NCBI GenBank assembly: GCA_022821545.1
Contig: JAJEDJ010000036.1
Location: 1-64,000 of the forward strand
Direction: 5' to 3'
Source of the DNA: Caldilineaceae bacterium
Lineage (GTDB): Bacteria; Chloroflexota; Anaerolineae; Caldilineales; Caldilineaceae
DNA length: 64,000 nucleotides
The notes under the pieces were generated by a model. The model saw nothing but the letters and a program-made list of their open reading frames with translations, ran no database searches and was not told the origin of the DNA. The position numbers and the translations under genes are program-made. Of this stretch, positions 1,522 through 1,877 are shown in pieces (position 1 is the stretch's first letter; each line of letters begins with the position of its first letter).

Positions 1522-1788
1522 TTACGCACGCGGGGCCGGCTCCAGGCCGATAGCCTCTGAGAAGAGACCGAGTACCTCTCCCTCCTCTGCATGGCGGCCC
1601 TCAGCCTTTTTGCTGTACACAATCGTATCGTCTGCCAGCACCTCGAAAAGTCCCCCACCCGAAGGGATCATCTTGAGGCTTTCAATCGCCGGCGTGAAAT
1701 TCTCTAACAGGTCGGCCGCCGCACGGACGGCTCGGGGTGTGTAGTTTCATTGTACACAGTATTCGATACTGACCTTGTACTTCTGCAT
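1522..1788 (-). CDS. SelW/Rdx-family selenoprotein with in-frame UGA (CVQU motif)
   Basis: An 88-residue thioredoxin-like redox protein of the Rdx (SelT/SelW/SelH) family. The ATG at 1788-1786 follows AGGAGAG by 6 bases. Residues 1-13 are MQKYKVSIEYCVQ; the next codon is TGA (1749-1747), then the same frame continues NYTPRAVRAAADLLENF... to a TAA at 1524-1522. In this family the N-terminus is a beta-strand ending in a CxxC or CxxU redox motif, commonly YCTQC, and the TGA falls exactly on the second redox position (Cys11-Val-Gln-Sec14). The PSGGGLFEV segment after the gap is also family-typical. Six-base stem arms (1731-1726 and 1720-1715) enclose a CGUGC loop 21 bases after the UGA, which fits a bacterial SECIS. 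Promoter and terminator flank the gene. SelA/B/C/D are not in the window. A sense mutation or sequencing error is the alternative, but the SECIS-like hairpin argues against it. Confidence 0.88.
1715..1731 (-). promoter_or_regulatory. Candidate bacterial SECIS element
   Basis: Immediately downstream of the in-frame UGA (1749-1747), the mRNA can form GCCGUC paired with GGCGGC (one G-U pair) around a 5-base loop CGUGC. The loop starts after 21 intervening bases and has G at its second position. Stem length, loop size, distance and early loop G fit the general model of bacterial SECIS elements. The pairing was found by eye and no folding energy was computed. Confidence 0.6.
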
Positions 1789-1837
1789 AGCTCTCTCCTG
1801 TCGCTGGACGGCCTTTCGGCGCAGCAAATGAAGTATA

Positions 1838-1877
1838 CTGCTATCCGAAGTATAGCAGCATTGCCCCCCATCGGCAA
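1838..1877 (-). promoter_or_regulatory. Promoter of the selW-like gene with overlapping inverted repeat
   Basis: On the minus strand: -35 TTGCCG (1877-1872), 17-base spacer, extended -10 TGC-TATACT (TATACT at 1854-1849). An inverted repeat, CTGCTAT (1838-1844) and ATAGCAG (1852-1858), overlaps the -10 and could be an operator. The transcript would start near 1842, giving a leader of about 55 bases with the ribosome binding site. Confidence 0.6.

Follow-up and report, generated by a model that had tools for sequence, protein, structure and literature searches.

An in-frame UGA very probably encodes selenocysteine in a SelW-like (Rdx) gene of an uncultured Caldilineaceae bacterium

A short gene of an uncultured Caldilineaceae bacterium (phylum Chloroflexota) raised the question of whether a TGA codon within its reading frame is a stop or a site of selenocysteine (Sec) insertion. 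The gene lies in a stretch of 64,000 nucleotides (positions 1 to 64,000 of contig JAJEDJ010000036.1, assembly GCA_022821545.1), which is called the window here. On its minus strand, positions 1788 to 1522 form an ORF of 88 codons followed by TAA (1524-1522), and the sole internal stop is TGA at codon 14 (1749-1747). An earlier reading made from the letters of the window (the sequence-only reading) had described an ORF broken by a single UGA at this codon, and translation of the minus strand bore this out. When the TGA is read as U, the product is MQKYKVSIEYCVQUNYTPRAVRAAADLLENFTPAIESLKMIPSGGGLFEVLADDTIVYSKKAEGRHAEEGEVLGLFSEAIGLEPAPRA.

The read-through product was assigned to the Rdx family by profile searches. 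It matched PF10262 (Rdx) with 68.1 bits (cut-off 22.6, E=7.6e-19) and TIGR02174 with 50.7 bits (cut-off 34.2). The best NCBIfam model was NF041051 SelTWH_Campy (SelT/SelW/SelH family (seleno)protein), nearly the whole profile of which was covered with 86.3 bits, just under the equivalog cut-off of 88 bits, and the product is thus no formal equivalog member. Among solved structures, the bacterial Cys-type Rdx proteins (PDB 2fa8 Atu0228, 3dex SAV_2001 and 2p0g) have the motif CTQC, with cysteine at the Sec position, whereas the window protein has CVQU. Homology to 2fa8 extended over 64 residues (E=2.1e-12), spanned both sides of the UGA, and aligned the TGA with the second Cys of CxxC. The alignment thereby placed the UGA exactly on the second position of the Rdx (SelW/SelT/SelH) CxxC/CxxU motif, C11-V-Q-U14, as had been proposed, and the two halves joined across the UGA proved to match Rdx in PF10262, TIGR02174 and the solved structures alike. 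Mammalian selenoprotein W (PDB 2npb) belongs to the same family and shares the CxxU position, but its direct similarity to the window protein was marginal (E=0.77), and its SECIS is of the eukaryotic kind, in the 3' UTR. The CxxU motif of the family suggests thiol/selenol redox chemistry. From these matches and the comparisons below, we consider it very probable that the gene encodes a SelW-like Rdx selenoprotein, in which the UGA would be decoded as Sec by means of a downstream hairpin.

An interrupted frame of this kind could also come from a pseudogene, or from a sequencing error that turned a Cys codon (TGC or TGT) into TGA, which is one substitution away; the genomes compared here are mostly metagenome assemblies. 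We looked at this explanation against the conservation of the codon. In an alignment of 156 Rdx genes (nearly all from the class to which Caldilineaceae belong, some being the same gene fetched twice), the codon at the Sec position of the motif was TGA in 151, TGT in four and TGC in one, and TAA or TAG in none, while the Cys11 codon (1758-1756, minus strand) encoded Cys in 156/156. A genome scan across Bacteria and Archaea yielded 26 loci, mostly in Caldilineaceae assemblies, with the TGA in place in every one. When 298 genomes were drawn evenly from the class, Rdx was found in 129, nearly all with exactly one TGA within the domain, and the UGA form was present in 126 of these 129. This TGA is shared by assemblies made independently of one another, within the genus, within the family and across most of the class. 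A sequencing error, which the sequence-only reading had named as a way to refute its proposal, was thereby excluded. Downstream of the UGA, all 69 codons compared stayed open, and dN/dS relative to the window gene was about 0.03-0.19 in pairs with unsaturated dS, which indicated strong purifying selection on the frame that is read after the UGA. With the UGA and the downstream frame conserved in this way, both pseudogene and sequencing error were rejected as extremely improbable.

In a tree of 131 distinct Rdx proteins, which was built on 78 columns and left many forks unresolved, three changes between the labels Sec and Cys were needed. Three genomes have a pair of Rdx copies of which one contains the UGA and the other lacks it: G170 (L076), G252 (L101/L148) and G200 (L052/L143). 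The second copy carries Cys in G170 and G200 (CAEC, CTQC).

A frame open across a UGA would also fit genome-wide reassignment, with Trp or Gly as the ordinary amino acid encoded by UGA. However, TGA terminates at least nine well-formed genes of the window and every Trp is encoded by TGG, so UGA is not reassigned. Homologues lacking the UGA have Cys at the position, never Trp or Gly, and the genome contains the full Sec machinery described below. Because TGA serves as an ordinary terminator in the same genome, reassignment was rejected, and its probability is negligible in our judgement.

The sequence-only reading had called for a search of the genome for selA, selB, selC and selD, and all four were present in the assembly, which is 98.9% complete and has one Rdx copy. 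The matches scored 546.7 bits for selA, 324.9 bits for selB and 331 bits for selD, and tRNA-Sec (selC) was found with 67.6 bits and called by ARAGORN as tRNA-Sec with the anticodon tca (UCA). The four genes sit on four different contigs; in the window itself, ARAGORN detected no tRNA, selC being on another contig. The selD frame (L022 1501-2496, minus strand; G000:C30:80938-81933) contains a single in-frame TGA (context ACAGUASK). In many bacteria SelD is itself a selenoprotein, and the selenophosphate synthetase (SelD) of this genome is probably one too. We also observed that SelA of the genus (L018/L019, G000:C20:34064-35494) interrupts the model after position 246 with about 31 additional residues and resumes at 247, all within a single open frame; SelA of the relative G291 matches the model without the split.

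In the class sample, the UGA form of Rdx was associated with the machinery for Sec. Strong selA was found in 120/126 genomes with UGA Rdx versus 130/172 without it (odds ratio 6.5), and four of the six UGA-Rdx genomes without strong selA had tRNA-Sec well above the cut-off. In G132 (86% complete) and G205 (77% complete), which carry UGA Rdx, neither selA nor tRNA-Sec rose above the cut-off, likely as a consequence of incompleteness. G146 is the one genome in which the only Rdx is a Cys form (TGT) and no selA match was obtained; its best hit to the tRNA-Sec model was weak (50.5 bits), so Sec decoding has likely been lost there. In G038, which belongs to the same family as the window genome, selA and tRNA-Sec (C43:28014-28108) were found with no Rdx match: Rdx was lost and Sec decoding was kept.

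The UGA might instead be read through leakily with Trp, Cys or another residue, in which case mainly a 13-residue peptide would be made and the hairpin would be incidental. Bacteria decode Sec through SelB, which carries Sec-tRNA and binds a hairpin, so that Sec is inserted at the UGA. The core of the SECIS-like hairpin (1731-1715, minus strand) is a 6-bp stem, GCCGUC/GGCGGC (1731-1726 / 1720-1715), closing the loop CGUGC; it starts 15 nt 3' of the UGA, and the loop G at 1724 is the 23rd nucleotide after it. By itself, the window hairpin was no more stable than expected by chance against dinucleotide shuffles (z -0.74) and not unusual against synonymous shuffles (z -0.17), as leaky read-through would have it. 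Since folding of the window sequence gave no significance, a comparative test was built on 132 distinct sequences.

The loop G was kept in 132/132 of these sequences. Where the loop codon encodes serine (66 sequences), it was AGY in 66/66, compared with 171/493 serines elsewhere in the same genes. The mean z against synonymous shuffles was -0.71, the paired fraction was 0.750 versus 0.711 (sd 0.005) with codons permuted between sequences that share the residue, and perfect core stems numbered 105/132 against 72 expected under synonymous column permutation, all of these shuffle and permutation statistics ignoring the relatedness of the sequences. Pair changes on both sides were seen, for example at 1729/1717, where C-G is replaced by T-A and by G-C; in 27/132 homologues the core stem was imperfect in the same register. 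Judged by these sequence comparisons, the hairpin is under selection beyond the needs of the protein, a signal that is visible by comparison only and not in the window sequence alone. Comparison likewise revealed what defines a bacterial SECIS, a hairpin just 3' of the UGA whose small apical loop contains a G. The hairpin of the sequence-only reading was right in place, stem and loop G, but taken alone it does not rise above chance level. The constraint on the loop G and on the AGY serine, the synonymous co-variation of the stem, the association of UGA Rdx with selA and tRNA-Sec, and the replacement of Sec by Cys in the lineage without selA (G146) all speak against leaky read-through, which we regard as very unlikely.

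Decoding of the UGA as Sec would then proceed as follows. SelA would make Sec on tRNA-Sec (anticodon UCA), using selenophosphate from SelD. SelB carrying Sec-tRNA-Sec would bind the hairpin just 3' of the UGA, and that single UGA would be translated as Sec. The predicted product, thioredoxin-like and 88 residues long, would carry the redox motif C-V-Q-U in the loop that follows its first strand. Its probable role is that of a small thiol/selenol oxidoreductase, which may run a Cys-Sec selenenylsulfide cycle with a cellular thiol as reductant. The sequences show directly the presence of the gene, where its UGA lies, the Sec machinery and the selection on frame and hairpin; the actual insertion of Sec, the redox activity and the redox partner are inferred.

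Signals for expression surround the gene on the minus strand. The strong ribosome binding site that had been claimed was seen as AGGAG at 1799-1795, 6 nt 5' of the ATG, and a promoter-like pair and a terminator were seen to flank the gene, as had been stated. The promoter-like pair TTGCCG-17-TATACT with TG before the -10 (1877-1849; 9/12 matches) lies in a block common to most of the genus, and one such pair was found versus 0.4 expected. The strong intrinsic terminator (1479-1446), a 15-pair stem followed by a T run, is present 3' of most same-genus orthologues with differing stem sequences. An inverted repeat, TGCTATACTTCGGATAGCA (1835-1861, minus strand), overlaps the -10 region of the Rdx gene. 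It occurs once in the genome and recurs partially in the genus alignment of close relatives; as only part of the repeat is shared in that alignment, we do not claim it as an operator. A DUF34/NIF3 gene and a divergent ORF of unknown function are kept as neighbours across the family. On the plus strand, a C-terminal fragment of an IS66 transposase (124-597; PF03050, 55 bits) adjoins the NIF3 gene. A search of the window against Rfam gave no match.

Selenoproteins of the SelW-like CxxU type (Rdx) form an abundant bacterial family that is already catalogued (PMC1088965, PMC1794560, PMC2398784, PMC9312934). They were described in 2005-2008, outnumbered every other such family in ocean metagenomes, and appear in a 2022 review as an established prokaryotic family (SELENOW-like, pfam10262, CxxU; PMC9312934). 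Their function has been called unclear, with a redox role suggested (PMC1088965). A survey of 2006 counted three selenoproteins in Chloroflexi and found few or no Cys homologues of SelW-like proteins in Sec-using organisms (PMC1794560). The gene described here agrees with these proteins in the Rdx domain, in a CxxU motif with Sec second, in a SECIS immediately 3' of the UGA and in the scarcity of Cys homologues in Sec-using organisms; it differs in its host, Caldilineaceae and their relatives in Chloroflexota. A partial search of the literature found no report of the family in this class. The interpretation as a SelW/Rdx selenoprotein was supported by each of the proposed checks that sequence data allow, but its novelty had been overstated, the CxxU Rdx family being already catalogued in bacteria.

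With this finding, an uncultured and widespread bacterial lineage gains a well-supported selenoprotein; the general knowledge of selenoproteins is unchanged. Since most Rdx genes of the class are Sec-coded, they may be prone to truncation or omission by annotation. A deep set of UGA genes with hardly any Cys counterparts is a resource on the retention of Sec and on the requirements of the bacterial SECIS. Chances appear even that this class of Chloroflexota is bound to the selenocysteine form of its SelW-like protein and that the SECIS also constrains codon choice, as at the AGY serine of the loop. If so, these bacteria would offer a natural setting in which to ask why some selenoproteins keep Sec unless Sec decoding is lost.
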